Positions 19,707 through 48,867 are shown, counted from the stretch's first letter. The stretch is DNA of 64,000 nucleotides from Bacilli bacterium (GCA_017962745.1 JAGCUR010000018.1:62001-126000), one strand, 5' to 3'. The notes: generated by a model from the letters alone, not told the origin. Made by a program: numbers and translations.

Positions 19707-21848
19707 ATGAAATCTTTTAAAATTTTTTGGATATTTTTGGTTTTAACTTTAGCTCTTGTAGGAATGGTGGGATGTAAGAATGGTCCTACTCCAGATCCTG
19801 GCGAAGGCGGAGATGGCCACGTTCACTCTTGGACAGATTGGAAAATTACCCAAGACCCTACATGTATGGATGGTGGCGAAGAGCAAAGAACTTGCGAATG
19901 CGGTGCTTTAGAAATTCGTCCAGTTGATCCAATTGATCACAATTATCAACTAGTTAAAATAGTTCCTGCTACAGCTAATACTAAAGGTACACAAGAACAT
20001 TATGAATGTTCTATGTGTCATAAACTATTTGATGCAAATAAGAGAGAAGTAACTAGTTCTAGTTTAGAATTAGCTATTCTTGAAGGTACATATGTATCTA
20101 ATCCTATTGTTGGTATATTAAATGCATATGGCGATATTCAAATCTATGATGGAAGTGTAGAAGTAGATAAAGGCGATATCGAAGGATATGTATTCGGAAT
20201 TAATGCTCAAGGAAGAATCATTTACGCTTCATACTATAGTTCTTCATATGGTGGACCAAGTGATGGATTCTATCACGATGGCACATATGCTCTAAATGCT
20301 GGTAGTGTATGCGGAATCTTTAATATTGATGCAGCATTCCAACCATGGCCAGCTACTACTGCAGTAAATGGCGAACAAGTTAACGCTTGGACATTATATG
20401 ATGTAGTTGTTCCTGCAGGGGGATACTTAATCTCTATTAAACGTAATGCAGCTAATCAATTCATTAGTGATTTAACTAAGAATAGCGCATTTGTTGAAGA
20501 AGAAGATAATACATTATTTGAAGCTACATTAGCTGATGGTGCTTTAAATAACATTAAAATCACTATCACTAAAGGTATTAAGAATGCAGCCGTAACTGCT
20601 ACTACAACAGAATCTCAAGAAGATGTTCATTTGACTGGTGTTAAAGTATCAGGTAGCGCAGAAGCAAGTTTTGCTTTAAACGCAGAAACTGGTAAATATG
20701 AAGGAACATTTACTTTAGCAGAGCTTTGGAATAGTGTTCAATTCGATTTAGTTTATAGCGATACAACAGTTACTAGAATGACATATGCCAATACAACATT
20801 TAATGGTACAGGTATTCTTTCTGCTATGGTTGATGGTGCTCCATATACAGCTATGTTATATGCTGATACTGAAGAATTAGTTACAAATGGTACATTCTTC
20901 TATAGTGCTAATGCCGAAACAACTTATGATGTTAGCTATGATCCTGAACAAGAAACATTAACTGTTAATGTTCATGTTAACGAACCAGCTGGATCAGGTG
21001 CTAGAGTCGTTGTTAGCGGAAGCACTGATGCTGCTCTTTCATTAAACGCAGAAACTGGTAAATATGAAGGGCAATTCAAATTAACTGCTATTTGGCAAAA
21101 TATATTCTTTGATTTAGTAGACGAAGAAGGTAGTTCATTAAGATTAACTTATGCAAATACTACATTTGCTGGTTCGGGAGTATTAAGCGAACAAGCATCA
21201 GCTCCTTGGACAGCAGCCTTATATTCAGAAGGCAATGAAGCAGTAGCAACGGGTAATTTCTGGTACAGTATTGATAAAGAAACAACTTATATTGCATCAT
21301 ATGATCCAGACACAGCTACAATGACAATTGAAGTATATGTTCCTGAAGCAACAGTTACTGAAGATTCATTTGTTCTTGATGGAACTACTAGAATTGCTAT
21401 CGCTGATGGCGTAACAATTTATGATTCTAGCGCTACTGATATTACATTTGGTGAATATACAATTGCAGTAGATGGCGATGGAAAAATCTTCTTCGCATCT
21501 AGAACAAGTGGTGGCTATGGCGGACCTGGCGATGGATTCTACCATGATGGTAACTACCAAGTAGTTGTAGGACAAGTATGTGGTGTCTTCTATATTCAAG
21601 AAGGATTCAAGAGCTGGAATGATTGCAGCGCTGCAGAAAGAACCCAAGAAGTAAAACCTTGGTCTTTATATACACGCGTATGTCCTGAAAACTGCCATAT
21701 TATTACTGGTAGCCAATCGGCAATGTCTAATTTAATTAAAGCTATTTGCAATATTGATACATTCAATGAATCAGCTAACACATTATTCGAAACAACTATT
21801 GCAGATGGCACATTAACAGTTGTTATTACATTCGAATTCAAAGAATAG
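19707..21848 (+). CDS. Large surface lipoprotein with A-B-B-A repeat architecture
   Basis: This 713-residue lipoprotein has its lipidated Cys at 23 (MVGC). Residues 40-115 carry two Cys-rich knots (TCECGA and YECSMCHKLF with nearby Cys), like those found in other gut surface proteins. Then follow domain A (about 130-300), two copies of domain B (about 310-415 and 430-545) and a second A copy (about 550-713). The A copies share YGGPSDGFYHDGTY versus YGGPGDGFYHDGNY, VCGIF versus VCGVF, WTLY versus WSLY, and a closing NTLFE stretch. The B copies share LNAETGKYEG and YANTTF. I recognise no enzyme motif. As first gene of the sugar-uptake locus it may bind the target glycan; that is inference. Confidence 0.8.
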   Translation: MKSFKIFWIFLVLTLALVGMVGCKNGPTPDPGEGGDGHVHSWTDWKITQDPTCMDGGEEQRTCECGALEIRPVDPIDHNYQLVKIVPATANTKGTQEHYECSMCHKLFDANKREVTSSSLELAILEGTYVSNPIVGILNAYGDIQIYDGSVEVDKGDIEGYVFGINAQGRIIYASYYSSSYGGPSDGFYHDGTYALNAGSVCGIFNIDAAFQPWPATTAVNGEQVNAWTLYDVVVPAGGYLISIKRNAANQFISDLTKNSAFVEEEDNTLFEATLADGALNNIKITITKGIKNAAVTATTTESQEDVHLTGVKVSGSAEASFALNAETGKYEGTFTLAELWNSVQFDLVYSDTTVTRMTYANTTFNGTGILSAMVDGAPYTAMLYADTEELVTNGTFFYSANAETTYDVSYDPEQETLTVNVHVNEPAGSGARVVVSGSTDAALSLNAETGKYEGQFKLTAIWQNIFFDLVDEEGSSLRLTYANTTFAGSGVLSEQASAPWTAALYSEGNEAVATGNFWYSIDKETTYIASYDPDTATMTIEVYVPEATVTEDSFVLDGTTRIAIADGVTIYDSSATDITFGEYTIAVDGDGKIFFASRTSGGYGGPGDGFYHDGNYQVVVGQVCGVFYIQEGFKSWNDCSAAERTQEVKPWSLYTRVCPENCHIITGSQSAMSNLIKAICNIDTFNESANTLFETTIADGTLTVVITFEFKE

Positions 21849-21860
21849 GAGTAAACGAAT

Positions 21861-24452
21861 ATGAAAAAAACTTTTAAATTTCTATTAGGCTGTTTCATCT
21901 TAACTCTTGCATGCTTTATGATTGCATGTAAAAACGGGGGAAATGGTGGAAATGGCGGTAATGGCGGCCAAGGTGGAAATGGCGGAAACGGTGGTAATAG
22001 TGGCCAAACTACATTCGGAAACGAAGAAGATGGCTTATATATTGACTACGTAGAAGCTAAAGAATTCACTGCTACACGTGCAGAAGTTAGACAAAATGCC
22101 TACACTGCATATGCTCCTGATGGATCAAAAATTGGTGATTTCATCACAATCGCTGATGCTATCAACACTTGTGTTGATTATGATGTAGAATACAACTCAA
22201 GTTTAAAGAGTGGTCAAGAAGAAGTATATGGTAGTTATGTTACTAAACTTGGATCTACATTCAAGATGTTTGTAAACCATAAAGGTTTCTCTGAAGATAA
22301 CAATGACCAATTCTGGTACTATGAAAATGGTACATCTTTAGCAGCTTATAACTGCTGGGATGGAGCAGATTCAATCACTACGTTACAAAACACTAATTTA
22401 ATTGCTCATAAAGTATCAGGCTTTGGAACAGTTGCTGAACAAACTTGGAATTCATATGCATTACTTGATGCATTTGGGGAACCAATTAATGATGTAAGTG
22501 CTCAAGTTTGGGAACTTTCAAGCACAATGGATGCAGCAGTACTTCAATTCCCTGCAAGACTTGGTGGTATTACAGGAATGAAATACAATATCGATTTATC
22601 TAATGTATCAATCGTTCCTCCATACGATGGAGCCGATTCTACATACGCATTCATGGGATTCTATGCATGGCAAGATTACTATGTAATTGCTATCGGTATT
22701 GCTTGCGATACTAGAACTGGTAACTGGTATCCATTCATCGGTACATCACGTGATGACTCATTCTCTGATGTAACTTATAACATTGGTAAATGTTTATTCA
22801 CATCAACTTGGTCAGAAGATGGTTACTTCAGACCAGATGTAACTGAAGTTGAATTAGAAATTAAAACTCTTAAACTTCATGATGATGAAGAAGATGAAGA
22901 TTATCAAATCGATGATTTCAAAGTAACTATTGATAGTAAATTGAAATATGAAAGACATATTACTGATTCACTATTAAATAACTACTTTAGTGGTTATCCA
23001 CTATCTTGGGAAAACGGTTATGTATTTATCGCTGGTCTTGATATTAAGAACAAAGTTGTTCAATCTCAATTTACTGAAAGCACAGATTACTTCAATGGTA
23101 GTCAATTCACTGGCTTCAAAGTAACTAGCGCTAAAGCATATGTACCTACAAAAGATGAAATTAGCGATATTACTTATGGTTATCCAATTGAAGATACATG
23201 GCGTGGCAAATGGCATGATATCTTAATGGCAAATACAGATGATACTGCAGAAGTATTAGATTATACAATTTTAAATACTTGCGTATGTGCAAGTTATCAA
23301 AAAGTTAATGGTTGCGATGTTTACTCATTCTCATATGATGGCAATAACGCAAGCGTTAGCGAACTTGGTACAAAACTACGTTCTTATCAAGCTAAGATTA
23401 ATGCTTTAGCAGATTTAGACGTAAGCGATATTTTAAATGATTCAAGTTTACTTGATGAAGTAGGAAGCTGGCTTGTAGAAAACCAAACAATCATTCCTCA
23501 AAAATACTTCTTATGTTTAGATTTCAGCGCATACTATGCTGCTAAAGAATTATTTGAAAGCACTTCAATGAGCGCTGAAGCTAAAGCAGTAGTAGGCCAA
23601 CTTCAAGCATTAAGCCCTGCTGATTATCAAGGATTTGATGCAATCGTTGCTTCAACATATGCAGCTTTAACTGAAGATGAACAAAATGTTGTAAGATTAG
23701 TATTCGGTGCTACTGCATTCGATAACTTACAAGAATTAAGCACATTCGTTAAGAGCTTAGAAGAAGTAAATGGTGTGTTTGTTACTTACCAAAATATTTT
23801 ATATGTAAATGGTAATGCCCTTACTTGTGCAAAAGATAAGAGCATGAGCGTTAAAGAAGCATTTGAACAATTAATGTGGTTATCAAATGGTATCGCAAAT
23901 AAAGTTCAATACAATCAAGCCGATGAATTCGGTGGCATCAATGATGACCCTAACAGTGGTCACTTAACTGGTGTTATGAATGGTGATAACCATTTCTATC
24001 CATCAATGAGAATTGTAGCAATCGTTGAATTCTTTGAAGGATTAGGTATTGAATTACCTGCATATGAAAAAGATTTATTAGAAACTATTGGATATGAAGA
24101 CTTCTATACTGGTTTCTATTATCCAATCTATAATACAGTAAAACTTGCTGTATCAATTCAAACTAATAGCAAAGCTGCGATCAGTGATCTAAGCGAAAGT
24201 GAATTAGCATTCTTAAATGAAGTATGGGTTAGTTCATATTTCATCAGCAACCAAATCGTATGGAACTGGAACTCTGGTAATAGATTCTTAATGTTCTACG
24301 ATGGAAGAACAAGAGCCATATCAGTAGAAGCTGGTGGCGATATCAGCGTAGCAGTTAAAGACTACTTCGCAGTTGTAGCTAATTTCTTAGAAGATTGTGG
24401 TTACACAGTACAAGGCAATGGCTGGGGCGTAACTGCTACAACAATTCAATAA
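21861..24452 (+). CDS. Large lipoprotein with Gly-Asn linker, unknown function
   Basis: This 863-residue lipoprotein has lipobox MIAC with Cys 23. A flexible linker of repeated GGN units follows (about residues 25-50), a way to hold a domain away from the membrane. The ectodomain is rich in aromatic residues and Asp/Asn, with beta-type stretches (for example ITGMKYNIDLSNVSIVPP, then YAFMGFYAWQDYYVIAIG) up to about residue 430. A helical second half follows (residues 520-860). No catalytic motif or known family was recognised. It lies 12 bases after the preceding lipoprotein, with AGGAG before its start. It ends in a hairpin that precedes the solute-binding protein gene, suggesting that the first two genes are made in excess. 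Confidence 0.75.
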   Translation: MKKTFKFLLGCFILTLACFMIACKNGGNGGNGGNGGQGGNGGNGGNSGQTTFGNEEDGLYIDYVEAKEFTATRAEVRQNAYTAYAPDGSKIGDFITIADAINTCVDYDVEYNSSLKSGQEEVYGSYVTKLGSTFKMFVNHKGFSEDNNDQFWYYENGTSLAAYNCWDGADSITTLQNTNLIAHKVSGFGTVAEQTWNSYALLDAFGEPINDVSAQVWELSSTMDAAVLQFPARLGGITGMKYNIDLSNVSIVPPYDGADSTYAFMGFYAWQDYYVIAIGIACDTRTGNWYPFIGTSRDDSFSDVTYNIGKCLFTSTWSEDGYFRPDVTEVELEIKTLKLHDDEEDEDYQIDDFKVTIDSKLKYERHITDSLLNNYFSGYPLSWENGYVFIAGLDIKNKVVQSQFTESTDYFNGSQFTGFKVTSAKAYVPTKDEISDITYGYPIEDTWRGKWHDILMANTDDTAEVLDYTILNTCVCASYQKVNGCDVYSFSYDGNNASVSELGTKLRSYQAKINALADLDVSDILNDSSLLDEVGSWLVENQTIIPQKYFLCLDFSAYYAAKELFESTSMSAEAKAVVGQLQALSPADYQGFDAIVASTYAALTEDEQNVVRLVFGATAFDNLQELSTFVKSLEEVNGVFVTYQNILYVNGNALTCAKDKSMSVKEAFEQLMWLSNGIANKVQYNQADEFGGINDDPNSGHLTGVMNGDNHFYPSMRIVAIVEFFEGLGIELPAYEKDLLETIGYEDFYTGFYYPIYNTVKLAVSIQTNSKAAISDLSESELAFLNEVWVSSYFISNQIVWNWNSGNRFLMFYDGRTRAISVEAGGDISVAVKDYFAVVANFLEDCGYTVQGNGWGVTATTIQ

Positions 24453-24456: not shown

Positions 24457-24489
24457 AATAATGGCAGGTTCTGCCTGCCATTATTTTTA
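24457..24489 (+). terminator. Intercistronic terminator
   Basis: A 12-bp stem (AATAATGGCAGG / CCTGCCATTATT, 5-base loop) is followed by TTT. It lies between the two surface lipoproteins and the transporter genes and may let only part of transcription pass. A separate promoter between 24490 and 24549 is possible but not clear. Confidence 0.8.
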
Positions 24490-24549: not shown

Positions 24550-26544
24550 ATGCGTAAATTTAGTAGAACACTACTTGCATTCTTACTAATTATGGTTGGT
24601 GCCTTGATGGCAGCATGCGGAAAGGGACCAGATGATGTGAATGATGCTACCTCAAAAATTAAATGGGATGTAGATTTATCTAATCCAATTACAATTAATG
24701 CAATGTTCCCAGCAGCCGGAATTTCTGGCTTTGGTGCTGATGACACTGCTAAGATAATTGAAGCAACAACTGGTTATAAAACTAAATATAGTGAATTATC
24801 AGAAGCTAATGCGGATAATGATGTATCAAATATTTTCTTAAACCAAGAAAAATATCACATCATTAAATTAACAGAAGCCCAATATCATCCTAATGCTAAA
24901 GAAGGAACATTACTTGACTTAACTACTCTACTTCAAAATACTGAACAAGGTAGAATGTTATATGCCTTAATCGATTTAATGGATTATGGTTGGGATGCTG
25001 TTACATATGAAAAAGAAGACGGAACTAAAGGTATTTATGCAGTTCCTGACTTTGGATATTGCGTAATGGAAGATTCCGCATTCGTTTGGAATGTAGATCA
25101 TTTAAAACAAATCGGTTATGTTAATGAAGATGGTAGCGTTAAGATCCCATCTACAATCGGTGAATTTAGCGATGCTTTAGTTAAGTTACAAACTAAATAT
25201 GGTGCAAGTAATGATAGTTATCGTGCTTTAACGATACCTGGTTCTAACTGGAGTAACATTAATACTTTAATGTCTGCATTCGATGTCCCTAATTCATACT
25301 ATGTAGATGAAAATGGAAACATTCAAATGTATATCTTCCACGAAGGCGTTACTAAATACGTTAATTATATGCATGATCTAAGAAATAAAGGTGTTATTTC
25401 TAAGAACTGGCAAAATACTGACCAAGCAAACTGCATCGCAAGCTTTGCTAATGGTAACTCATCAGTTACTATGATTGCTTATTGGTGGGTTGAATCATTA
25501 ATCAACAGCGTCGTAGCTAAAGGTAATTTAGCAAAAGATGCTGGTGTTACTAATGATTATCAAACAGTTCATGATCAAGTTATCTGCTGGGCAACTAGAC
25601 TAAGAGGCGATGGAACTAACGGTTCTGTTAACCAAGAAAAAGCTAGATATATCGGTGGTGAAGCCGGCGTTTCATATTATACTGGTATTCCATACTATAT
25701 GGCTGAAGATGCTGTTTATATCATCGACTACTTAGCAAAGAAGATGTTATACTTCGCAGAATATTATGGTGGAACTGGCTTATCTAAAGAAGAAATCTCA
25801 GCTGGTAAAACTAATGCTGGTGTTACTATTGATGAAAACTACATCAAGAATAATGTCCATTGGGTAGAAGTAGATGCTCCAGCAGGCGCTAATGCATTCT
25901 ATGATAAAGATGATTATGGCTACCAACAATACGAAGATTATACAAATAAGATCATTTACCTAAGACCTTATAGTTATGAAATTGAATATAAAATTGATTC
26001 TAAACTATCTCATCCAGTAGCTGATGGGGAAACAAAAGTTATTAAGAGCAATTGTCAAGAAATTACATATCATCTAGTTGGTGATACAATGCATCTTTCT
26101 GTTCAAGGTGGTGGAAGATGGGTTCAACTTACTAGCCGTTATATGGAACAAATCGTTGATAATTCACAATATTGTAACGGAACAAATAGCATTGCTGCTA
26201 ATGTGTTATTCCATTTAAGAGAAACTGGATTTGATGCATGGCAAGTAACTGTTCCAATGGATGATTCAATTATCACTTGTCCAATGGAAATGATGCCTCC
26301 TATGAAATACTGGGCACCAATTTCAATTTTATCTAGAACAGTAGCTAAGCGTGGTATTGCAAGTGCCATCGATTGCCCTGATTCTACAACTCCAGAAAAA
26401 GCCCTAAACCTTACAAGACAATCATTATATGAAAAGTATTCTAAAGGTTTAGATGGTACTAAATATTATTATTGGTCAGATGATATTGTAAATGAAATGA
26501 CTACTTGGTACAAAAACGTTAAATTAAAAAGAGATGAAAAATAA
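24550..26544 (+). CDS. Extracellular solute-binding lipoprotein, sugar ABC transporter (family 1)
   Basis: This 664-residue lipoprotein (lipobox LMAAC, Cys 23) has the layout of large LplA/LipO-type binding proteins that accompany LplB/LplC permeases for oligosaccharides. Recognisable regions are NPITINAMFPAAG near the mature N-terminus, IFLNQEKYHIIKL, and DGTKGIYAVPDFGYC, where the chain enters the first lobe. At 664 residues it is longer than the usual 450-550. It is directly followed by two permease genes, 13 bases and then 9 bases apart. The ligand is probably an oligosaccharide released by the locus glycosidases (inference). Confidence 0.88.
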   Translation: MRKFSRTLLAFLLIMVGALMAACGKGPDDVNDATSKIKWDVDLSNPITINAMFPAAGISGFGADDTAKIIEATTGYKTKYSELSEANADNDVSNIFLNQEKYHIIKLTEAQYHPNAKEGTLLDLTTLLQNTEQGRMLYALIDLMDYGWDAVTYEKEDGTKGIYAVPDFGYCVMEDSAFVWNVDHLKQIGYVNEDGSVKIPSTIGEFSDALVKLQTKYGASNDSYRALTIPGSNWSNINTLMSAFDVPNSYYVDENGNIQMYIFHEGVTKYVNYMHDLRNKGVISKNWQNTDQANCIASFANGNSSVTMIAYWWVESLINSVVAKGNLAKDAGVTNDYQTVHDQVICWATRLRGDGTNGSVNQEKARYIGGEAGVSYYTGIPYYMAEDAVYIIDYLAKKMLYFAEYYGGTGLSKEEISAGKTNAGVTIDENYIKNNVHWVEVDAPAGANAFYDKDDYGYQQYEDYTNKIIYLRPYSYEIEYKIDSKLSHPVADGETKVIKSNCQEITYHLVGDTMHLSVQGGGRWVQLTSRYMEQIVDNSQYCNGTNSIAANVLFHLRETGFDAWQVTVPMDDSIITCPMEMMPPMKYWAPISILSRTVAKRGIASAIDCPDSTTPEKALNLTRQSLYEKYSKGLDGTKYYYWSDDIVNEMTTWYKNVKLKRDEK

Positions 26545-26557: not shown

Positions 26558-27562
26558 ATGGAACAAAATGAAGAATTACTAGTTCCAAAAAATACAGAGA
26601 AAAAGAAAAGAAGAAGAAAATACTGGGAAACGCAAAGACTAAATCTAAAAAGAAATAAAAGTATTTTATGGTTTATCGTACCTGCTGCTTTATTTACGAT
26701 AGTCTTTTCGTATATTCCAATGTTTGGTGTCTTGTTCGCATTCAAAGATCCTGCTTTTGATTCCGCAATGCGTAGAGGTGCTGATATCATTGGCGCATTA
26801 AAGTATTCTAATTGGACACTTGAAACCTTTAAATCAATATTTAATGATAGTTTTTGGCTATCACTTAAAAACAGTGTTCTAATTAACTTAATAAAGCTAG
26901 TATTTGTCTTTCCTTTGTCTATTCTAATAGCTATTCAGCTATCAGAAATGAAGAATCAAAAATTAAGTAAATTAATCTTAATTATTATTTGTATTCCAAA
27001 CTTCTTAAGCTGGACTGTAGTTATTAAAGCATGGACAAGCTTCTTTGATCCCGATATTGGTTTCTTAGGAAAACTATTAAGCAAAGCTACTAATGGGGAA
27101 ATCATTAGTTACTATGAAGCTTCCTTTAAACCATTATTCGTATTCTATTCCGCTTGGAAAGGTGCCGGCTGGGGATCAATTCTTTATTACGCGGCGATTA
27201 TGAGTATCGATAAATCATACTATGAATCAGCCACAATCGAAGGAGCTAATAAAATCCAAAAAGCATTCTACTTAACAATCCCAGCAATTGGGGGAACAAT
27301 TGCTTTAATGTTAGTTATGATGTTTAGTGGATTTACTGGTGTAGGTCTAGAACAATTAAAATTAATGTTAGACCCAACAAACTATATCGAGAGTCAACAA
27401 ACTCTAGACTACTATATTTATGAATTATCAATCGGCCAAGGAGCAGGTGTTTCATACGTTCAAGCTGCTGCTCTAGGTGTATTTAATGGTTTAGTAGGAC
27501 TATTGTTACTACTTGGTGGTAATGCCTTAACTACTAAGACATTAAAGCGAGGGTTATGGTAG
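26558..27562 (+). CDS. Sugar ABC transporter permease (LplB-like)
   Basis: This 334-residue inner membrane permease has a basic cytoplasmic N-terminus (KKKRRRKYWETQRLNLKRNK) and then six transmembrane helices. The EAA loop that contacts the ATPase reads YYESATIEGANKIQKAFYLTIPAI (positions about 222-245). It is the first of the permease pair for the upstream binding protein. No ATPase gene lies in this window near it, so the complex probably uses a shared MsmX-type ATPase encoded elsewhere, as in other Firmicutes. Confidence 0.93.
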   Translation: MEQNEELLVPKNTEKKKRRRKYWETQRLNLKRNKSILWFIVPAALFTIVFSYIPMFGVLFAFKDPAFDSAMRRGADIIGALKYSNWTLETFKSIFNDSFWLSLKNSVLINLIKLVFVFPLSILIAIQLSEMKNQKLSKLILIIICIPNFLSWTVVIKAWTSFFDPDIGFLGKLLSKATNGEIISYYEASFKPLFVFYSAWKGAGWGSILYYAAIMSIDKSYYESATIEGANKIQKAFYLTIPAIGGTIALMLVMMFSGFTGVGLEQLKLMLDPTNYIESQQTLDYYIYELSIGQGAGVSYVQAAALGVFNGLVGLLLLLGGNALTTKTLKRGLW

Positions 27563-27571: not shown

Positions 27572-28504
27572 ATGAATAAAACAATTGATCAACCTAACAT
27601 AACTAAGAGAAGATTATTTAAGAAGAACCCAAATAAAATCAAAGAAACATTAAGTGACCGTATCATTCATGCAGTTAGCGTTTCATTACTTATTTTCTTT
27701 GTTATCTTAATTGTCTTTCCACTTCTTAATTATTTCTCACTAGCATTTAATAATTACGCATTTAACGATAAAATCATTTTATGGCCAGCAAAACTAGATT
27801 TAGCACCAATTAAATATGTATTTAGTGCAAACTCAAAAGATTTCTGGCGTTCATTCTTAAATTCAGTAATTATTACTTTAATCGTAACATTCGTATCTAA
27901 CTTAGTAGAAGCAATGGCAGCTTATCCGCTTTCTAAAAAGAATTGTCCTTTTAGATCAGGAATCTTAATGTTCTTCATCATTACCATGCTATTTTCTGCT
28001 GGTGTAGTACCAATTTATTTATTAATGAGATCATTTAATTTACTAAATACTATTTGGTCAATTATCTTAATCTCAATTAGTAATGTTACTAACTTATTAT
28101 TCTTTAAGACATTTTTTGAAAATGTACCATCGGAAATTCAAGAAGCAGCGATCATTGATGGAGCAAGCCCGTTACAGATGTTCTTTAGAATTATCGTGCC
28201 AATGGCCCTACCGGTATTTGGTAGCTGTTGCTTCTTCACAATTGTTGGTATGTGGAACGGATATGGGGCTGCGCTAATCTTCATTAACTCTGAAGCAACT
28301 GAGGCAATGCCACTAGCATATTATTTATACATTAGCCTAACTAATGGCCAAGCCGCTACAATGTATGATGATTTCTTAAGAAATTACTTACCAAATATCC
28401 AAGCGGCATCAATGTTAATATCAATCATTCCAATCTTAATCATTTATCCTTATGTAATTAAATATATTAAGAGTGGAGCCACTTTAGGATCTGTAAAAGG
28501 ATAG
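27572..28504 (+). CDS. Sugar ABC transporter permease (LplC-like)
   Basis: This 310-residue permease of the carbohydrate uptake family has six predicted membrane helices. Its EAA loop is EIQEAAIIDGASPLQMFFRIIVPMALP. The C-terminus LIIYPYVIKYIKSGATLGSVKG is typical for LplC-type subunits, whose last residues read GxxxGxVKG. It forms the heterodimeric pore with the preceding gene. The ribosome site GGAGGT is strong. Confidence 0.94.
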   Translation: MNKTIDQPNITKRRLFKKNPNKIKETLSDRIIHAVSVSLLIFFVILIVFPLLNYFSLAFNNYAFNDKIILWPAKLDLAPIKYVFSANSKDFWRSFLNSVIITLIVTFVSNLVEAMAAYPLSKKNCPFRSGILMFFIITMLFSAGVVPIYLLMRSFNLLNTIWSIILISISNVTNLLFFKTFFENVPSEIQEAAIIDGASPLQMFFRIIVPMALPVFGSCCFFTIVGMWNGYGAALIFINSEATEAMPLAYYLYISLTNGQAATMYDDFLRNYLPNIQAASMLISIIPILIIYPYVIKYIKSGATLGSVKG

Positions 28505-32004: not shown

Positions 32005-32598
32005 ATGAAAAGAAGATTTATTTTAATTTTAATCTTATTACTAGTTAGTGTATTTTCTTTTTCTTGCAAAGGAAAAGAAGATTTAAATGTTGCTAGCATT
32101 GAAGAAGCATCATTAGAACTAGAACTTGGTAGAACTTATACAGTTTCTGTTAATACAGAAATGATGGAAAGCTTATCATTTGTGCTAAGTGATGAAGACA
32201 TTGCTAGTTATGAAATAGAAAACAATAATTTACTAGTAAAAGCAAATAAAATTGGTAGTGCCAAACTAGATGTTATTTATAAAGAACAAGTAATTGATAG
32301 CGTAGATTTAGAAGTTATTGAAGAAGTTATATATTTACCAATTCCAACGGGAATGATTTTACTTAAAGGTGTTGATAAAGAAGCATCAGTTAAGATTATC
32401 TTGACTAAAGAAGGTTTAGATAATGAAGAAGTGAAATGGAGCTTAGATACTGAAGGTATCGTAGAAGTGCAAACCCAAGGTAAAATTGCTCATTTTCATT
32501 CTTTATCAAGAGGTAAAGTAGAAGTAACAGTAAGTGTTGGTAATTATACTAATTCATTTATAGTTTATGTGACTAATATTAGAGGAGATATCGACTGA
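32005..32598 (+). CDS. Small lipoprotein with Ig-like (BIG2-type) folds
   Basis: This 197-residue lipoprotein (lipobox FSFSC, Cys 21) contains two beta-rich units. The second, LPTGMILLKGVDKEASVKIILTKEG with VEVQTQGKIAHFHSLSRGKVEVTVSVG, has the pattern of bacterial Ig-like group 2 domains (EVKWSLDTEGIVEV, then G-K-A-VTV). No catalytic motif is seen. Its stop overlaps the start of the GDPD gene (TGATG), so it probably works with that enzyme, for example as a surface anchor or substrate-binding module (inference). Confidence 0.72.
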   Translation: MKRRFILILILLLVSVFSFSCKGKEDLNVASIEEASLELELGRTYTVSVNTEMMESLSFVLSDEDIASYEIENNNLLVKANKIGSAKLDVIYKEQVIDSVDLEVIEEVIYLPIPTGMILLKGVDKEASVKIILTKEGLDNEEVKWSLDTEGIVEVQTQGKIAHFHSLSRGKVEVTVSVGNYTNSFIVYVTNIRGDID

Positions 32599-36401: not shown

Positions 36402-36407
36402 AAAATA

Positions 36408-40560: not shown

Positions 40561-42438
40561 ATGATACTAAATATTCACTGCCCAAATGAATTTAAGAAAG
40601 GTCTAGAAGAACTAGCTAAAGAATTTGATTTTGAAATCGGAAATAGCGATATTGAAGTCTTTATTGAAAAGAGTGAAGAAGATAAAGTTTTATTTATAAA
40701 TAATGCATATCATATTTATTATACAGAAGATGTATATGCTTTTAGAATGTTCTTCCATGTTTTAACTAGATATAAAATTAATCGCTATTTTGATTATAAT
40801 TTTGAATTTAAAGCGGAAATTGAAAAATTAACATTTATGTTAGACTGTTCTAGAAATGCAGTGATGAAGCTAGATAGCTTAAAAAGATTAATTAGATATT
40901 TAGCTTGTATGGGCTATAATGGTTTAATGCTTTATACTGAAGATACATATGAAGTTAAAGATTACCCATATTTTGGATATTTACGTACTCCTTATAAAAA
41001 GGAAGATATTAAAGAAATCGATGCTTACTGCAAACTATTTGGTATTGAATTAATACCATGTATTCAAACATTAGCTCATTTTAATAGTATTGTTAGATAT
41101 CCTAGTATGAATCATTTATTTGATTGCGATGATATTTTATTAATCGGAGAAGATGAAACATATAAGTTTATTGAGGAATTAATTAAAACTTGTAAAGAAT
41201 GTTTTAGTTCAAATAAGATTCATATCGGTATGGATGAAGCTCATATGGTAGGTAGAGGTAAATACCTCGATAAATTTGGCTACCATGAACGTGGTGAACT
41301 GATGAACTATCATGTGAAAAGAGTGTTAGATATTTGTAATAAATATGGATTAGATGCCATGATGTGGAGTGATATGTATGTATCACTAGCTACTGGAGCA
41401 TCTAATGTATCAAAAGATAAATTAAAAGAAATACCTGATGGTATTGAATTAATATACTGGGATTATTATCACACTAATGTAGCTCATTACGAAAATGTCC
41501 TAAATATTCATAAAAGATTAGATAAGAAAATTGGCTTTGCCGGTGGTGCTTGGAAGTGGTTAGGATTTACACCTGACAATAGATATTCAAATATTGAAAT
41601 TGATGCATCGATGAGAGCATGTAAACTGACTAATACTAATAACTATATTTTAACAGCTTGGGGTGATAATGGAACGGAAACTAGTCCGTTTGCGGTTCTA
41701 CCTGCTATCTTTTATGCAAGCTTAGCTAGATATAATTATTTAGATCTAGATAAAGATATTAATAAATTAGTATTTAATAATGAATTTATGGTGCTTAGTG
41801 ATGGAATCACATATGATGATTATATGAAGCTAGATTTAGCTAATAGAATCACGCATAATGATGACTTTAACGAAAAGAATAGCGCTAATAAATATTTATT
41901 ATTTAATGATATTTTACTAGGTACTCTAGATACTATTATTGATGATAATATTACTAATATGTATTTAGAACATATCGAAGAATTTGAAAAAGTAAATTAT
42001 CAAAATACTAAATTTGGTTATTTATTTACTAATCAACTTAACTTATGCAAAGTATTAAGCAAGAAAGCTCATTTAGGTATTGATTTAAGACGTGACTATA
42101 AGGCTAATAATAAAGCAGGTCTAAAAGAAGATTTAAATATATTAAAAGAATTACTTCCTTTAATTGAAGAGTTTTATAATTCATTTAATTACCAATGGCA
42201 TTTAGAAAATAGAGCTAATGGCTTTGATGTCCAAGACATTAGAATTGGTGCTTTAGAGAAACGAATTAAAGTAGCTATTAAAAAGCTAAGTGATTATTTA
42301 GAAGGTAAGACAAAAGTTATAGAAGAATTAGAAGAAGAATTATTATGTTTTAATGGACATGATAAAGATTTTGAAAAAGATTACGATAACTGCGAATATA
42401 GATGGAGAAGAATGACATCAGTTAATGTCAATGATTAA
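40561..42438 (+). CDS. GH20-like beta-hexosaminidase
   Basis: This 625-residue protein has no signal peptide. After an N-terminal alpha/beta domain comes a (beta/alpha)8 barrel: LDSLKRLIRYLACMGYNGLMLYTEDTYE opens it, and the catalytic Asp-Glu pair of GH20 is D225-E226 in KIHIGMDEAHM. HFNSI and MMWSDMY are further typical blocks, and GAWKWLGFTPDN lies near the sugar pocket. GH20 enzymes remove terminal beta-GlcNAc or GalNAc by substrate-assisted catalysis. The C-terminal 200 residues are helical and acidic, of unknown role. It should act in the cytosol on imported oligosaccharides. Confidence 0.85.
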   Translation: MILNIHCPNEFKKGLEELAKEFDFEIGNSDIEVFIEKSEEDKVLFINNAYHIYYTEDVYAFRMFFHVLTRYKINRYFDYNFEFKAEIEKLTFMLDCSRNAVMKLDSLKRLIRYLACMGYNGLMLYTEDTYEVKDYPYFGYLRTPYKKEDIKEIDAYCKLFGIELIPCIQTLAHFNSIVRYPSMNHLFDCDDILLIGEDETYKFIEELIKTCKECFSSNKIHIGMDEAHMVGRGKYLDKFGYHERGELMNYHVKRVLDICNKYGLDAMMWSDMYVSLATGASNVSKDKLKEIPDGIELIYWDYYHTNVAHYENVLNIHKRLDKKIGFAGGAWKWLGFTPDNRYSNIEIDASMRACKLTNTNNYILTAWGDNGTETSPFAVLPAIFYASLARYNYLDLDKDINKLVFNNEFMVLSDGITYDDYMKLDLANRITHNDDFNEKNSANKYLLFNDILLGTLDTIIDDNITNMYLEHIEEFEKVNYQNTKFGYLFTNQLNLCKVLSKKAHLGIDLRRDYKANNKAGLKEDLNILKELLPLIEEFYNSFNYQWHLENRANGFDVQDIRIGALEKRIKVAIKKLSDYLEGKTKVIEELEEELLCFNGHDKDFEKDYDNCEYRWRRMTSVNVND

Positions 42439-42440: not shown

Positions 42441-44486
42441 ATGAGTGTTTTAAGATTTGGATTTGGAGAAAAAATCATAACTAATTCAGTTATTAAAGAT
42501 TATCAATATAATGATTTAAAATTATTAAATCATTATTTTGAAGTGCAATTAACTGATGGTGTTGTCACACTAAGTAGAAAACTAGATGATGATAAAATCT
42601 ATGGTCTTGGGGAAAACGTAAAAGGGATTAATAAAAGAGGATGTATGTTTACATCATTTAATGAAGATGATCCAGATATTACAGAAGATCGTAAGAGTTT
42701 ATATGCAGCTCATAACTTTTTAATCATTGCGGGTAAAAATACATTTGGGTTATTTATCGATACACCAAAAGTAGTAGATTATGATTTAGGATTTAGTGAT
42801 TTAGATAATTTAGTTATTAAAACTAAAGATGGATTTGATTTATATATAATTGATATAGAATCTAGCACACCAGAACTAGATATAATCCATGAATTTAGAG
42901 AAATGATTGGTAAAAGTTATATTGCGCCATTTTGGGCATTTGGTGTTGCTCAATCTAGATGGGGATATAAGAGCAAGCAAGATTTAGAAGATGTAATAAA
43001 TGGTTTTAAAGAAAAGAAATTACCACTAGATATGCTATTTTGTGATATTGACTGTTTAGAAGAGTTTGAAGATTTTACTTTCAATAATACTTTTTATAAA
43101 AATGGTAAGATTGATAGTGGTTTCTTTAAAGGACTAAAAGAAGATAAGATTCATTTAGTTCCAATTGTAGACGCTGCAGTTAAAGTTAAAGATGGTTATT
43201 TCTTATATGAAGAGCTAATGAAAGAAAAAGGGTATTGCACAGATAAAGATGGTAACCCATATATCGTTGGCGTATGGCCAGGGGATAGCCTACTACCAGA
43301 TTATTTATCTAAATCTGGTAGTGAAGTATTTGGTAGAGGCTATAAGAAATATCTAGATTTAGGAATTGATGGCTTCTGGAATGATATGAATGAGCCAGCC
43401 TTATTCTATAGTAAAAAGTATATAAATGAGTTTGCAAACCATTTAAGAAATATAGATTATGATAAATTTCATGAAATGGATTTTTACATCATCCGTGATA
43501 AAGTAAATCAGATTAAAAACAATATTGATGATTATAAGAGTATTTATCATAAATATGATTTAGCCTATAAAGATAATAATATCGTTAACCATTATGATGT
43601 TCATAATATGTATGGATATAAAATGGTAGAAGCAGCTCATAATTATTTTGAAAAATATAATTTAGAAAATAATATAAATAAGAAGTATTTATTATTTAGT
43701 AGATCATCAATGATTGGCTCACACCGCTATAGTGGTATTTGGACAGGTGATAATGCGGCTTACTGGAATCATTTATTATTAAATCTAAAGATGATGCCAT
43801 CTTTAAATATGTGTGGCTATTTATATAGTGGGGCTGATATTGGTGGCTTTGGTCACAATGCGAGTGAAGATTTACTGATTAGATGGATGGGTCTTGGTAT
43901 CTTTACACCATTATTTAGAAATCATACATGTAACTGGGTAAGGGCTAAAGATTATCATTTGATGCAGAGGACTAATATAATAAGAAACATATTATCGATT
44001 AGATATGCATTACTGCCTTATATTTATTCCGAATACATTAAAGCAGTGAATAATGATACTTTGTTATTTACGCCATTAGCATTTAGATTTAGAGATGATG
44101 AGAGATGTGCTGATATTGAAGATGAGTTATTATTTGGTGATAGTTTGTTAATTGCCCCAGTCTATTCTCAAAATGCAAATGGTAGAATGGTATATCTACC
44201 AACTGATGCCATTGAAGTTAGAATGAAGAGTGGTAAGGATTATAAGCTAACAAATCTACCAAAAGGTGATCATTATATTAAAGTTGATCTAGATGAAGTC
44301 GTATTCTTTATTTTAGATGGTGGTATCTTACCACTTGCTAAGATAGATGAAGTTGATAAGATTAAAAATATCGAAAGCGTTAATTATAATGATTTAGAGT
44401 TTATAGGTAATATATATAATAAGAAAGAGTATATTTTATATTACGAGCAAGATACTATAAAAGAGAAAAAGATTAAGTTGAATTAG
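42441..44486 (+). CDS. GH31 family alpha-glucosidase-like enzyme (type 2)
   Basis: This 681-residue cytoplasmic enzyme is of the alpha-glucosidase branch of GH31. The nucleophile is D315 in GIDGFWNDMNEPALFY, and the acid/base is D437 in IWTGDNAAYWNH, followed by CGYLYSGADIGGFG. PLFRNHTCNW lines the pocket. Compared with the GH31 at 30026, both catalytic contexts differ, so this is the better candidate for a true alpha-1,4 or alpha-1,6-glucosidase. It starts two bases after the GH20-like stop with almost no ribosome site (no purine block within 12 bases), suggesting translational coupling. Confidence 0.92.
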   Translation: MSVLRFGFGEKIITNSVIKDYQYNDLKLLNHYFEVQLTDGVVTLSRKLDDDKIYGLGENVKGINKRGCMFTSFNEDDPDITEDRKSLYAAHNFLIIAGKNTFGLFIDTPKVVDYDLGFSDLDNLVIKTKDGFDLYIIDIESSTPELDIIHEFREMIGKSYIAPFWAFGVAQSRWGYKSKQDLEDVINGFKEKKLPLDMLFCDIDCLEEFEDFTFNNTFYKNGKIDSGFFKGLKEDKIHLVPIVDAAVKVKDGYFLYEELMKEKGYCTDKDGNPYIVGVWPGDSLLPDYLSKSGSEVFGRGYKKYLDLGIDGFWNDMNEPALFYSKKYINEFANHLRNIDYDKFHEMDFYIIRDKVNQIKNNIDDYKSIYHKYDLAYKDNNIVNHYDVHNMYGYKMVEAAHNYFEKYNLENNINKKYLLFSRSSMIGSHRYSGIWTGDNAAYWNHLLLNLKMMPSLNMCGYLYSGADIGGFGHNASEDLLIRWMGLGIFTPLFRNHTCNWVRAKDYHLMQRTNIIRNILSIRYALLPYIYSEYIKAVNNDTLLFTPLAFRFRDDERCADIEDELLFGDSLLIAPVYSQNANGRMVYLPTDAIEVRMKSGKDYKLTNLPKGDHYIKVDLDEVVFFILDGGILPLAKIDEVDKIKNIESVNYNDLEFIGNIYNKKEYILYYEQDTIKEKKIKLN

Positions 44487-44496: not shown

Positions 44497-46785
44497 ATGC
44501 CTAAAAAGTTAATAATCATTTTATTATTTGTTTTATGCTTATTGATGATTGGCTGTAAAGAAAAAGAACCGAATGGTGATGGCGGTGGAAGCCAAATCGT
44601 AGAACCAGACCCAATTAGTAGTATCAAACAAGGAGAAGAGGATAATTTTAAAAATTATCTAGTTTTGTTTGGTAGAACTTATTTTAGTAATGGGCGCTTA
44701 GCGCTAGATCACTGCGGAACGGGGTTTGAAGCTTCATTTACGGGTTCGAGCATGACGCTTGATGTCATAGCCGCAAGTACTACCACATTACTAGTCGTTT
44801 ATATTGATGGAGAAGAATATAAAACTATTAGATTAACGAGAAATGGGACCGTTAATGTTTGTAAAGATTTAGAAAATGGTGAACATATTGTTAGAGTAAT
44901 TAAAGCTTCATCAACTGCTAGTGGCCCAGTATTCATTAATGAAATTAATACCGATGGTGTTATCAATAAATACCAAAAAGAATTTAAACTAAGAATTGAA
45001 TTCGTAGGAGACTCGATAACTTGTGGAGCAGGGAGCTTGGCGGATAATACTACGCCAACTACATCATTTGATAACAATGATGTAACTAAAGCATATTCAT
45101 ATGTATGTGCAAATTTACTTGGTGCTTATTTTTCAATATCAGCTACTGAAGGTATTTGCGTTAAAGCAACAACTGCAGTTAAAGCCCAAAGTATTGATTT
45201 ATATCAAAGTTATTCTTTAAATAATCATTCTAAATATGATTTCAGTAATCCTAGCGATATCGTAGTAATCGATTTAGGAACTAACGATGCGGATTACTTA
45301 GCAGGCCATCCTGAATACGGTAATGACTTTGCTACTGATTATTTAGAACTAGTTAATTTAATTAGAGAAAAGAATCCAAACGCAGAAATTATTTGCATGT
45401 ATGGCCATATGGGTATTAACTCTAAAATCAGAGATGGTATTAGAAAAGTAGTATCAGACTTACAATCTAGTGGTGATGAACACATTTACTGGTTCCAAGC
45501 TACAAGTGATTTTAGTGGTGCTGGTAGCCATCCAGGAATGGCTGGAGCATACAAGCAAGGAGTAGAACTATATAAATTTATAGTGGATAATAATATCGTG
45601 GATGCTAGTTTAATTGATAATACGCAAAATAAAGAAAAAGAATATATCGATGGTAAAAAACTAGTTGTTTTTGGGGATTCAATTACCGCTCTTGGCACTT
45701 GGGGCGAAGATGCGGCTGATGAGCTTAATATGTATTTTTATAATGGAGCAATGGGTGGCATTACTTCTGCCCAAGGAATTGATCGTTTCAATGCAGTAGT
45801 AAAAGATTCTGGTGCTGATTTTGTTACACTGTGTTTTGGTCAAAACGATTTAATCATGAATACATATAATACCCCTAAAGTTGGCTTAGCTGATTTTAAA
45901 GCAAATATGACTAGATTAGTCGAAATGGTTAGAAGCATTGGGGCTACCCCAATATTACTAACTACTAACCCACTTAACCCTGATATTTTCTGGACTGCGC
46001 AAGGACAAAAGAAAGAAAACTATACTGAAGTAGGTGGCAACCCCCTAGCATGGCTAGATGAATATAATAAAGTTACCCGCGAAGTAGCGCGTGAAACTAA
46101 CTGTGACTTAGTAGATATGCGTACCCAGTTTAGTGAAAAATATTACCGTAATGCTTTATCAGATGGGATTCACTTAAATGCTAGAGGTAACGAAATATTT
46201 AAAGATGCATTAGTACAATTCTTTAGAAATAAATATGCTAATGATCCTAATGCGCCAAAAGTTAGTAAAGAAGACTTAAATATTTATGTTACTGATACTA
46301 ATAAAGTAAGTTTAATTAGTAAAGAAGCAACTGATTGGTATACAGCTGATACTAGTCTAATGAAGATTGAAAAGCAAGATGAAGCAATCGTCTTTTATAA
46401 TACTAACAATTTATGGCCAGAAGCAATTTATGCAAGGTCTAATCCAATTGTAATTGATTATAATAGTGGTGTTTTATATTACGATATTGAGGTAAGTAGA
46501 GTAGATACAAGTATTATCATATTCTTTAATACATCTACACCATCTGCTTATAAAAATGGGGAATATGTAGTTATCAATTCGCATATATCTGAAAATGTCA
46601 ATACAGCTGGTGATATCATGGGACCGGGTCATTTTACAGGTGAGATTAAACTAAGCGATTTAAATATTGCGAAAGCATATTTAAATGATGGTAAATTAAC
46701 TATTAATGGCATTAAAGTATTTGCGGCTGGAACTAGTTACCAGAAAGTAACAATTAACGAGCTAAGTGTAGCACTAGGAGAGTAG
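44497..46785 (+). CDS. Double SGNH esterase lipoprotein (CE2-like plus GDSL)
   Basis: This 762-residue lipoprotein (lipobox MIGC, Cys 20) carries two hydrolase domains. Residues about 45-150 form a small beta-sandwich, followed by SGNH domain 1 (FVGDSITCGAG, LGTNDADY, GAGSHPGMAGA); this order matches carbohydrate esterase family 2. Residues about 385-590 form SGNH domain 2 (VFGDSITALG, CFGQNDLI, DGIHLNARG). The C-terminal 150 residues look like a carbohydrate-binding beta sandwich (INSHISENVN, GHFTGEIKLSDLN). Both domains should remove acyl groups, probably acetyl, from a glycan at the cell surface. In domain 1 the usual Asp three residues before the catalytic His is replaced (AGSH). Confidence 0.88.
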   Translation: MPKKLIIILLFVLCLLMIGCKEKEPNGDGGGSQIVEPDPISSIKQGEEDNFKNYLVLFGRTYFSNGRLALDHCGTGFEASFTGSSMTLDVIAASTTTLLVVYIDGEEYKTIRLTRNGTVNVCKDLENGEHIVRVIKASSTASGPVFINEINTDGVINKYQKEFKLRIEFVGDSITCGAGSLADNTTPTTSFDNNDVTKAYSYVCANLLGAYFSISATEGICVKATTAVKAQSIDLYQSYSLNNHSKYDFSNPSDIVVIDLGTNDADYLAGHPEYGNDFATDYLELVNLIREKNPNAEIICMYGHMGINSKIRDGIRKVVSDLQSSGDEHIYWFQATSDFSGAGSHPGMAGAYKQGVELYKFIVDNNIVDASLIDNTQNKEKEYIDGKKLVVFGDSITALGTWGEDAADELNMYFYNGAMGGITSAQGIDRFNAVVKDSGADFVTLCFGQNDLIMNTYNTPKVGLADFKANMTRLVEMVRSIGATPILLTTNPLNPDIFWTAQGQKKENYTEVGGNPLAWLDEYNKVTREVARETNCDLVDMRTQFSEKYYRNALSDGIHLNARGNEIFKDALVQFFRNKYANDPNAPKVSKEDLNIYVTDTNKVSLISKEATDWYTADTSLMKIEKQDEAIVFYNTNNLWPEAIYARSNPIVIDYNSGVLYYDIEVSRVDTSIIIFFNTSTPSAYKNGEYVVINSHISENVNTAGDIMGPGHFTGEIKLSDLNIAKAYLNDGKLTINGIKVFAAGTSYQKVTINELSVALGE

Positions 46786-46793
46786 GAGAAGTT

Positions 46794-48053
46794 ATGGAAA
46801 AATTAAAAGTAGCAATTATTGGTTGTGGATCTAGAGGATGTGAAACATACGGTAGATTAGTTTATGATTTACACGATAAGTTTGAAATTGTCGCTTTATG
46901 TGACATTAGACAAGATAGACTAGATAAATATAGTAGCGAATTTAAGATCGATAAGAAAAACACATTCTTAGATGAAGATGAGTTCTTTAAAGAAAAGAGA
47001 GCTGATGTTTTATTCATTTGTGTTTTAGATAAAGACCATGTCCGTGTTGCTATTAAAGGATTAAATCTAGGTTATCATTTGTTATTAGAAAAACCAATTA
47101 CAGCTGATTTAGACGAATGCAAGGCATTACTTGATGCGAAAAAGAAAAGCGGTAAAGAAGTTATTGTATGCCATGTCTTAAGATATGCTAATGCTTTTGT
47201 GAAGGTAAATGAATTAATTGAAGCAGGCGTAATTGGTAAGCTTGTATCAATCCAAGCCTTAGAACAAGTAGGCTGGTTCCACCAAGCTCATAGCTTTGTA
47301 AGAGGTAACTGGCGTGATACAAAAGAGACGACACCGATGATTATGGCTAAGTGCTGTCATGATTTAGACTTGTTACAGTTTTATGCAAAATCAAGATGTA
47401 AAACTATTTCCTCAATCGGCGATTTACGTTTCTTTAAAAAAGAAAATATGCCTTTTGATGCGACTCATATGTGCGTAGACTGTCCACATATTGATAAGTG
47501 CCCATATAGCGCTAAGATCATTTATCTAGATGGTTGGCTAAGCAGAGGTAAACCAGGTAACCAGTGGCCATTTAATGTTATTACAGAAGCTAACCCGTTA
47601 ACTTATGAAGCCTTAAGCGATGCTATTAAAAATACTAAATATGGTAGATGCGTATTTGACTGCGATAATGATGCGGTAGATAGCCAAATCGTTATGATGG
47701 AATTTGAAAATGGTATAACTGCAAGCCTTACTATGATGGGCTTTACGGGATGTGTTGGCCGTATTATGAAGTTTTATGGAACTATCGGTGAGATTGATTT
47801 AGATGAGGAAAAGAGCGTAATTGAAGTTAAAAGATTTGCATTACCAAAAGAAATCATTAAGATTGACGATCTAGTAAATCCAGATTCAATGGCTCATGGT
47901 GGTGGTGATTATATGATCGTTCAAAGCTTATATGATGCTATCATTGGAAAGAACGCAAAGACTACATTAGAACAATCAATTGAAAGCCACTTGATGGCAA
48001 TCGCAGCTGAAAGCTCAAGATTATCAGGCGGTAAGATGATAAAGGTTCACTAA
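46794..48053 (+). CDS. Gfo/Idh/MocA family oxidoreductase
   Basis: This 419-residue cytoplasmic NAD(P)-dependent oxidoreductase has an N-terminal Rossmann fold (VAIIGCGSRGCETYGRL) and the family block LLLEKPITADLDEC with the EKP lysine. The C-terminal alpha/beta domain has KCCHDLDLLQFY supplying the catalytic-region His and Asp. An unusual insertion near residues 220-245 has three cysteines (MCVDCPHIDKC), which could bind a metal or be structural. Substrates of this family are sugars, inositols or sugar acids. It sits at the end of the locus and likely acts on a released monosaccharide. Confidence 0.9.
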   Translation: MEKLKVAIIGCGSRGCETYGRLVYDLHDKFEIVALCDIRQDRLDKYSSEFKIDKKNTFLDEDEFFKEKRADVLFICVLDKDHVRVAIKGLNLGYHLLLEKPITADLDECKALLDAKKKSGKEVIVCHVLRYANAFVKVNELIEAGVIGKLVSIQALEQVGWFHQAHSFVRGNWRDTKETTPMIMAKCCHDLDLLQFYAKSRCKTISSIGDLRFFKKENMPFDATHMCVDCPHIDKCPYSAKIIYLDGWLSRGKPGNQWPFNVITEANPLTYEALSDAIKNTKYGRCVFDCDNDAVDSQIVMMEFENGITASLTMMGFTGCVGRIMKFYGTIGEIDLDEEKSVIEVKRFALPKEIIKIDDLVNPDSMAHGGGDYMIVQSLYDAIIGKNAKTTLEQSIESHLMAIAAESSRLSGGKMIKVH

Positions 48054-48054
48054 G

Positions 48055-48867
48055 ATGGGATATTTTAGAATCAAAAAATATAACGATAATTTGTATCAAT
48101 TAATTGATAAACTAGGCGTTATATCCACATTAGTAATAGGTGGTTCTAAAGCTTTAGTATATGATACATGTTACGGGTTTGCGAGTCTTTTAGAAGAAGT
48201 AAAAAAGATAACTGATAAAGAGTTAATAGTCGTAGATTCGCATGGTCATATGGATCATACGGCAGGAAATTTTCATTTCGCTAAAGTTTATATTAACGAA
48301 CTTGATTACCCTTTATGTAAGCGCCATAATAGTCTAGAAATGCGTAAAGCTAATATTGCTAGAGCGAAAGAAGCTAACGCTATTAGTGAAGATTTTGATA
48401 TTGATGATTATTTAGATAAAAGAGAAGGTAATCTAGAATTTATTAGCCCTGGTCATGTATTTGATTTAGGCGGACTACATGGTAAAGTCATCAATATGGA
48501 AGGCCACACACCAGGATCTATTGGCATCTTACTTGAAGAATGGAAACTACTATTAGTAGCTGATGCCACATGCCCATATGTATGGTTATTCTTAAATGAA
48601 TCTTTACCACTTCCTAAATATATTGAAATGTTAGAAAGGGTGTTAAAGCTAGACTTTGATAACTTCTTAGTAGGACATGATGCAAGATTATTTAAAAAAG
48701 AAGAAATGGTAGGATTTTTAGAGATAGCTAAAAGAGTAGATCCTGCTAAGTCATATAAAGTGAGTTATGGTGGCTTTGATGATCTAGAATCATATAGTTA
48801 TGAAGAACCATCAGGTAAAGATGGCGCAACAATTGCGGTTATCTTTAACCCGGATAAATTAAAATAA
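48055..48867 (+). CDS. Metallo-beta-lactamase fold hydrolase
   Basis: This 270-residue cytoplasmic protein has the MBL metal motif HGHMDHTAG (HxHxDH, about residues 62-70), the second-metal His in MEGHTPGS, the bridging Asp in LLLVADATCP and the last ligand in VGHDAR. This set suggests a glyoxalase II-like or thioester/ester hydrolase; no lactamase activity is implied. It starts one base after the preceding oxidoreductase stop and is the last gene of the locus before a strong terminator. The substrate may be a lactone or ester made by the oxidoreductase (inference). Confidence 0.9.
   Translation: MGYFRIKKYNDNLYQLIDKLGVISTLVIGGSKALVYDTCYGFASLLEEVKKITDKELIVVDSHGHMDHTAGNFHFAKVYINELDYPLCKRHNSLEMRKANIARAKEANAISEDFDIDDYLDKREGNLEFISPGHVFDLGGLHGKVINMEGHTPGSIGILLEEWKLLLVADATCPYVWLFLNESLPLPKYIEMLERVLKLDFDNFLVGHDARLFKKEEMVGFLEIAKRVDPAKSYKVSYGGFDDLESYSYEEPSGKDGATIAVIFNPDKLK

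Follow-up and report, generated by a model that had tools for sequence, protein, structure and literature searches.

An 18-gene operon with two DUF4127 proteins in a Bacilli genome, tentatively assigned to the scavenging of wall glycopolymers that contain N-acetylmannosamine

Several described glycan and wall-polymer systems have parts that recur in one locus of Bacilli bacterium GCA_017962745.1, an organism of the rumen. The locus occupies positions 19707-48867 of a 64,000-nucleotide stretch (JAGCUR010000018.1:62001-126000, referred to below as the window), and its 18 genes include two of the family DUF4127, for which a literature search returned no paper. The MULL/MULS loci of Roseburia intestinalis (PMC6385246) share with it a surface endo-enzyme, a solute-binding protein (SBP) with two permeases, CE2/SGNH esterases, cytosolic exo-enzymes and an epimerase of the AGE superfamily. 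A Pfam search of the window operon recovered none of their GH130, GH113, GH36 and GH3 enzymes, and no regulator gene is present among the 18; in their place the operon adds NAGPA, GDPD and GH20C proteins, the two DUF4127 proteins and an epimerase of the N-acetylglucosamine (GlcNAc) type. Degradation of wall teichoic acid by GlpQ and PhoD of Bacillus subtilis (PMC7086022; PMC11488536) also employs a secreted enzyme of the GDPD family, and that polymer has in common with the substrate proposed here its alpha-glucose, its ester groups and a linker of N-acetylmannosamine (ManNAc) and GlcNAc. The window GDPD differs in being encoded in a glycan import operon with glycosidases, and resembles solved glycerophosphodiesterases weakly. 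The sialic-acid (nan) operons (NanA/NanE/NanK, RpiR) share NanE, a ROK kinase and RpiR with the wider DUF4127 module described below, and differ from it in their NanA. Lytic transglycosylases of the Cwp19/GHL10 type (PMC6016235) are often encoded near DUF4127 in other Bacilli. The Listeria cycloalternan-forming enzyme is the nearest solved relative of GH31a, one of two GH31 proteins of the operon; GH31a is cytosolic and shorter, and no cycloalternan partner genes were seen.

A first-pass annotation of the window had read the locus as a system for a phosphodiester-linked glycan, with GDPD and a sugar-1-phosphodiester glycosidase as its signature. A stronger signal, which it missed, is the tie of DUF4127 to the ManNAc epimerases. 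The association was assessed in 382 Bacilli genomes; the sample drawn for the phylum held genomes of this class only, and the statistics therefore apply to Bacilli. DUF4127 was present in 20 genomes, 16 of which carry the ManNAc-6-phosphate epimerase NanE (58/362 among the others). AGE, which only 9 of the 382 genomes possess, is present in each of the four that lack NanE, namely the window's own genome, G103, G273 and G400. NanE or AGE is thus present in all 20 DUF4127 genomes versus 59 of the 362 others (p = 2.4e-15; p = 3e-10 when counted by genus). These p-values are made too small by the relatedness of the genomes, but the count spans 18 genera and the genes are also physically associated. 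In 17 genomes listed, NanE and DUF4127 are at most 6.5 kb apart; 8 of these were found only after the hypothesis had been formed. In a few other genomes the distance is about 20 to 26 kb, although distances above 15 kb in draft genomes depend on contig breaks, and in G196 NanE is on another contig. AGE immediately follows DUF4127 in G273 (67% identical to the window AGE) and is separated from the second DUF4127 gene of the window by NAGPA alone; in G400 and G103 the two genes are on different contigs.

NanE acts on ManNAc-6-phosphate and AGE on ManNAc. The simplest reading is that the DUF4127 pathway yields ManNAc. The usual source of ManNAc is sialic acid. This source was rejected as unlikely because the NanA lyase passed the cut-off in none of the 27 DUF4127 genomes searched (1/14 control genomes passed), under a strict cut-off, below which weaker matches in 13 of the 27 resemble the related DapA; the absence of NanA above the cut-off points to another source. 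DUF4127 is accordingly put forward as a candidate new enzyme family releasing ManNAc.

An AlphaFold2 model of the second DUF4127 protein, built from 46 sequences, was obtained with a pLDDT of 95.5 and a pTM of 0.94. No solved homologue was found for the family, either by sequence or by fold (best TM score about 0.2, with matches mostly to TIM barrels). Helices and strands alternate in the model, and the invariant polar residues (D10, R12, N15, R79, R115, D206, D240, D355, N386, N390 and D422) mostly come after strand ends. This secondary-structure string would be consistent with a barrel-like enzyme having a pocket for an anionic ligand. It is a real possibility, if one we hold to be the less probable, that DUF4127 is linked to ManNAc without being the glycosidase, and that it acts for example as a lyase, phosphatase or etherase on modified or phosphorylated ManNAc; such a role would be compatible with any of the polymers considered below. 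The invariant residues rich in Arg and Asp (R12, R79, R115, D206, D240, D355) suit an anionic substrate, and some operons pair DUF4127 with a permease of the phosphotransferase system (PTS) and a HAD phosphatase, yet several loci place it directly beside the exo-glycosidases GH20C or GH84, as would be expected of another exo-glycosidase.

The neighbourhood of DUF4127 was surveyed at 17 loci of other Bacilli (107 neighbours). The families recovered included GHL10 (12), FAD_oxidored (8), NanE (8), GDSL (8), ROK (5), RpiR (4), NAGPA (4), GH20C (4) and GH84 (3). Compact gene orders include NanE-GH84-DUF4127-GHL10-x-NAGPA (L086), GHL10-NanE-GH84-DUF4127-GNAT-x-NAGPA (L092), GHL10-GHL10-GNAT-DUF4127-GH20C-DUF4127 (L084) and NanE-x-x-DUF4127 (L116 to L118). 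In Cwp19, GHL10 is a peptidoglycan lytic transglycosylase (PMC6016235). The link between DUF4127 and the ManNAc epimerases, taken with the GHL10, GH84 and GH20C partners, suggests cell-wall aminosugar polymers as the target. GHL10 by itself was discarded as a marker of DUF4127, being too common to be informative (67/120 genomes).

Variants of the DUF4127 module were also observed. The compact NanE...DUF4127 operon of L116, L117 and L118, which are unrelated Bacilli, is a minimal version and a convenient starting point for biochemistry; in L116 (7244-12970) it reads NanE, PTS permease (EIIC), HAD phosphatase and DUF4127, followed by a GDSL esterase and an RpiR regulator. A second recurrent order (L120-L122 and L091) consists of permeases, SBP, an Ig-like protein, DUF4127, a hydrolase, an FAD oxidoreductase and NanE, and DUF5696 was confirmed upstream in L120. 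A more distant DUF4127 subfamily (about 27% identity) occurs in L069, L070 and L074-L077, and several of these loci hold a conserved cassette of DUF4127 with an FAD oxidoreductase, a DeoC-like protein, an SGNH esterase and a GntR regulator.

The window locus consists of 18 open reading frames, all on the plus strand, with intergenic gaps of at most about 100 bases. Profile searches of their products (Pfam, NCBIfam) recovered every family named by the first-pass annotation, so that its description of one colinear locus holds. It had also called the locus a glycan-utilisation system; the co-directional cluster, the ABC importer and the several glycan-active enzymes are those of a Gram-positive polysaccharide utilisation locus. 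All 18 genes are collinear in a sister species of the same genus (Bacilli metagenome-assembled genome RGIG8164 from water-buffalo rumen; G001/JAFZWP01). Between the two species dN/dS is 0.04-0.35 across 17 genes, AGE being left out since it is split over two sequence pieces, and the operon is under purifying selection. The whole locus recurs only in this congener: the exact gene set is genus-specific as far as visible in the genomes compared, and it is not due to chance.

The first genes encode two surface lipoproteins with no Pfam domain, Lip1 (19707-21848, with an internal repeat) and Lip2 (21861-24452); a distant relative of Lip2 adjoins DUF4127 in G273 (24% identity), and a structure model of Lip2 was unusable (pLDDT 35). 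The importer comprises the SBP, a lipoprotein (24550-26544; SBP_bac_1 below the curated cut-off), and two BPD permeases (26558-27562 and 27572-28504). They are followed by DUF4127a (28518-30017), GH31a (30026-31999), a small lipoprotein with a Big2 domain (32005-32598), GDPD, of glycerophosphodiesterase fold with an extra N-terminal region (32598-34373; 58.9 bits), and a GH26-like surface lipoprotein (34386-36401; 32.8 bits). The second half of the operon encodes the N-acylglucosamine 2-epimerase AGE (36445-37638), the NAGPA-like phosphodiester glycosidase, a surface lipoprotein (37642-39039; 56.3 bits), DUF4127b (39047-40552), the exo-beta-N-acetylhexosaminidase GH20C (40561-42438), the alpha-glucosidase GH31b (42441-44486) and a surface lipoprotein that joins a CE2 esterase to a second SGNH esterase (44497-46785; CE2_N and two SGNH stretches). 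The last two genes form a pair, a Gfo/Idh/MocA sugar dehydrogenase (46794-48053) and a hydrolase of metallo-beta-lactamase fold with the motif HGHMDH (48055-48867); this pair and the small Big2 lipoprotein are additions to the gene set of the first-pass annotation. The two DUF4127 matches scored 454 and 477 bits. The recognised hydrolases and the epimerase retain intact catalytic motifs. N-terminal signals, judged by eye and with a simple motif, mark Lip1, Lip2, SBP and the Big2, GH26, NAGPA and CE2/SGNH proteins as lipoproteins and GDPD as secreted; none was seen in the two DUF4127, two GH31, AGE, GH20C, Gfo/Idh and metallo-beta-lactamase-fold proteins. This distribution points to trimming outside the cell and final digestion inside.

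From protein families, motifs and gene association we propose, with a confidence that falls a little short of even, that the operon scavenges a Gram-positive wall glycopolymer containing ManNAc and GlcNAc, alpha-glucosylated and esterified. The polymer would hold sugar-1-phosphodiester joints and carry alpha-glucose and ester decorations. At the surface, seven lipoproteins and one secreted protein (Lip1 and Lip2, both probably glycan-binding, the Big2 protein, the GH26-type endo-enzyme, the double esterase, GDPD, NAGPA and the SBP) would trim it and pass fragments to the ABC importer. In the cytosol, GH20C would take off beta-linked N-acetylhexosamine (HexNAc) and the two GH31 enzymes alpha-glucose, DUF4127a and DUF4127b would act in a step ending in free ManNAc, and AGE would convert ManNAc to GlcNAc for glycolysis, while the dehydrogenase and the metallo-beta-lactamase-fold hydrolase may process a further sugar; the order of these steps is equally provisional. 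A secondary wall polymer of ManNAc and GlcNAc would fit, as would wall teichoic acid, whose linker is ManNAc-beta-1,4-GlcNAc. Wall teichoic acid bears alpha-glucose and D-alanine and is a substrate of GlpQ; it is attached through ManNAc-beta-1,4-GlcNAc by a phosphodiester to C6 of N-acetylmuramic acid (PMC7086022). Most of these bonds have a candidate enzyme in the operon (GDPD, GH31, the esterases, GH20C, NAGPA, AGE), with DUF4127 proposed for the ManNAc linkage. A secondary wall polymer of ManNAc and GlcNAc, or a sugar-phosphate-linked capsule, could be attacked by the same set, and either would account better for GH26.

The identity of the epimerase and of the GH26 protein bears on an acetylated plant hemicellulose as substrate, in which a GH26 mannanase or lichenase, the CE2 esterase and the epimerase would work on mannan or beta-glucan. 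The Roseburia mannan loci (PMC6385246) are typified by GH26, CE2 and an epimerase of the AGE superfamily, and the nearest structure to the GH26 protein is Endoglucanase H, a GH26 beta-glucanase. The GH26 assignment is tentative: both candidate catalytic Glu residues are present, and the match is weak and spans only the second half of the protein. Among 43 genomes of the order, the protein occurs at full length only in the window genome and its sister species. The epimerase scored 284 bits against true GlcNAc 2-epimerases and about 75 against cellobiose epimerase, and it keeps the conserved active-site blocks. It falls below the strict NCBIfam equivalog cut-off (320 versus 600 bits), and by these matches it is assigned to the GlcNAc type, not to the cellobiose/mannobiose type. 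Neither a GH130 phosphorylase nor a mannobiose-type epimerase, the marks of a beta-mannan locus, is encoded in the operon. A hemicellulose would also give GH20C, NAGPA, GDPD and DUF4127 no role, and we regard this substrate as very unlikely. A plain mannan locus was rejected on the missing partner genes and the type of the epimerase, in agreement with the first-pass view that parts of the operon argue against plain mannan, xyloglucan or starch.

GH20C has its nearest solved relatives in the N-acetyl-beta-glucosaminidase 2epk, which we take to be Paenibacillus Hex1, and in pneumococcal GH20C; its catalytic D-E pair and the GH20C C-terminal domain are both present. Pneumococcal GH20C and Hex1 act on complex glycans or glycolipids. 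Their kinship with the window enzyme speaks for the scavenging of glycoconjugates from a host or from microbial eukaryotes (mucin, N-glycan, or fungal or protozoal phosphoglycan). No sialidase, fucosidase, alpha-mannosidase, GH85 or GH18 gene is present in the operon, and NanA was below the cut-off in every DUF4127 genome tested; such a diet therefore seems very unlikely.

GH31b is nearest to the alpha-glucosidase group of 3n04, and GH31a to Lmo2446, the cycloalternan-forming enzyme of Listeria, and its GH31 relatives, which makes a GH31a substrate with alpha-1,3- or alpha-1,6-linked glucose plausible. The resemblance of GH31a to enzymes of alpha-1,3/1,6 glucan (cycloalternan) metabolism also favours an extracellular polysaccharide or capsule over teichoic acid, with repeats of alpha-glucose, beta-HexNAc including ManNAc, O-acetyl groups and sugar-1-phosphate like those of pneumococcal type 19F. 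Such a polymer would account for endo-cleavage by GH26, the CE2/SGNH esterases, both GH31 enzymes, GH20C, NAGPA and AGE. It leaves GDPD unexplained and sits poorly with the peptidoglycan lytic GHL10 found in relatives of the module, so that we consider a capsule rather unlikely, though clearly less so than a hemicellulose or a eukaryotic glycan.

The interpretation offered by the first-pass annotation is partly supported, NAGPA being the better-founded half of its proposed signature. The family is present in 15/20 DUF4127 genomes and 47/362 others (p = 2e-9), and outside the genus 10 of 29 copies are within 22 kb of DUF4127, with 1.2 expected; these data support NAGPA as a genuine recurrent partner of DUF4127. 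GDPD is not enriched within the same distance (1/29 outside the genus, 1.1 expected; the proximity test is approximate, as contig ends were ignored), and a conserved GDPD-NAGPA pair was for that reason rejected as a general rule. Both occur together in two other loci: in G029 C47, GDPD adjoins DUF4127, and in G060 C197 it is near NanE and NAGPA and is similar to the window GDPD over the N-terminal and catalytic stretch. The window GDPD keeps the motifs HRG, EN, ExD, H and E; a secreted GDPD/GlpQ-type protein with intact catalytic residues is what would be predicted for degradation of wall teichoic acid. The window NAGPA matches Pfam above the cut-off and keeps the N-D-[FY]-F, PR and DGGGS core. 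It has VES, as does the sister species, in place of the VDG (or close form) common to mammalian NAGPA, 3OHG and most bacterial relatives aligned. Its activity may be changed, and this divergence makes the phosphodiester step insecure.

The loss of VDG from NAGPA and the absence of GDPD enrichment weigh against the proposed scavenging of a wall glycopolymer, as do several further points. Two hallmarks of the module in other genomes, GHL10 and NanE, are missing from the window's own genome, a metagenome-assembled genome of 97% completeness in which gene absences are strong but not absolute. GH26 and the cycloalternan-type GH31 are superfluous for known teichoic acids, and the linker of wall teichoic acid is a small fraction of the polymer and poor food by itself. 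Association with epimerases also falls short of proof that ManNAc is released by DUF4127 itself.

A bolder proposal, which we think doubtful but worth stating, is that DUF4127 founds a new enzyme type that frees ManNAc from the ManNAc-GlcNAc units of wall polymers. Together with NanE or AGE, and with NAGPA as the enzyme that would cleave the sugar-1-phosphate anchor, it would form an undescribed, widespread module by which Bacilli of gut and rumen live on other bacteria's teichoic acids or secondary wall polymers, and the window operon would be the most elaborate version seen here. DUF4127 thereby becomes a testable prediction, a ManNAc-releasing enzyme always accompanied by NanE or AGE in the Bacilli sampled. 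If this is true, the module would be a route for recycling dead rumen bacteria and a source of tools to cut wall polymers, and bacterial NAGPA proteins would gain a testable role.

The 18 genes probably form one operon with a single promoter, and its boundaries are plausible. A promoter-like pair, TTGATT-17-TAAAAT (19573-19601, plus strand), and an operator- or cre-like element, GGAAAGCGTTTGCA (19615-19628, plus strand), precede Lip1 and are kept in the sister species despite drift of the surrounding sequence. Promoter-like matches in this upstream stretch are no more frequent than in shuffles, so that conservation is what supports both elements; a perfect cre site was rejected, as the strict pattern does not match the region. 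A strong intrinsic terminator (48877-48906, plus strand) follows the last gene. A 13-bp hairpin after Lip2 (24457-24485, plus strand) is likewise conserved in the sister species; it may act as a partial terminator, boosting expression of Lip1 and Lip2, or may stabilise the mRNA. An 11-bp hairpin between GH26 and AGE (36407-36432, strand unassigned) is possibly a site of RNA processing or attenuation. The flanks are unrelated to the operon, with a radical SAM gene on the opposite strand and an M18 peptidase gene having its own promoter-like site.

Elsewhere in the window, a 940-residue open reading frame (13237-16059) fuses glutamyl-tRNA synthetase (residues 3-473) to a TldD metallopeptidase (503-938). 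This unusual fusion is preceded by a SAM riboswitch (13105-13191) and followed by a PmbA/TldE-like gene and MetK. A lysine riboswitch (52035-52205) lies upstream of an amino-acid ABC importer (52288-53825), and a response regulator with GGDEF and EAL domains, for cyclic-di-GMP turnover, is encoded at 58821-60581.

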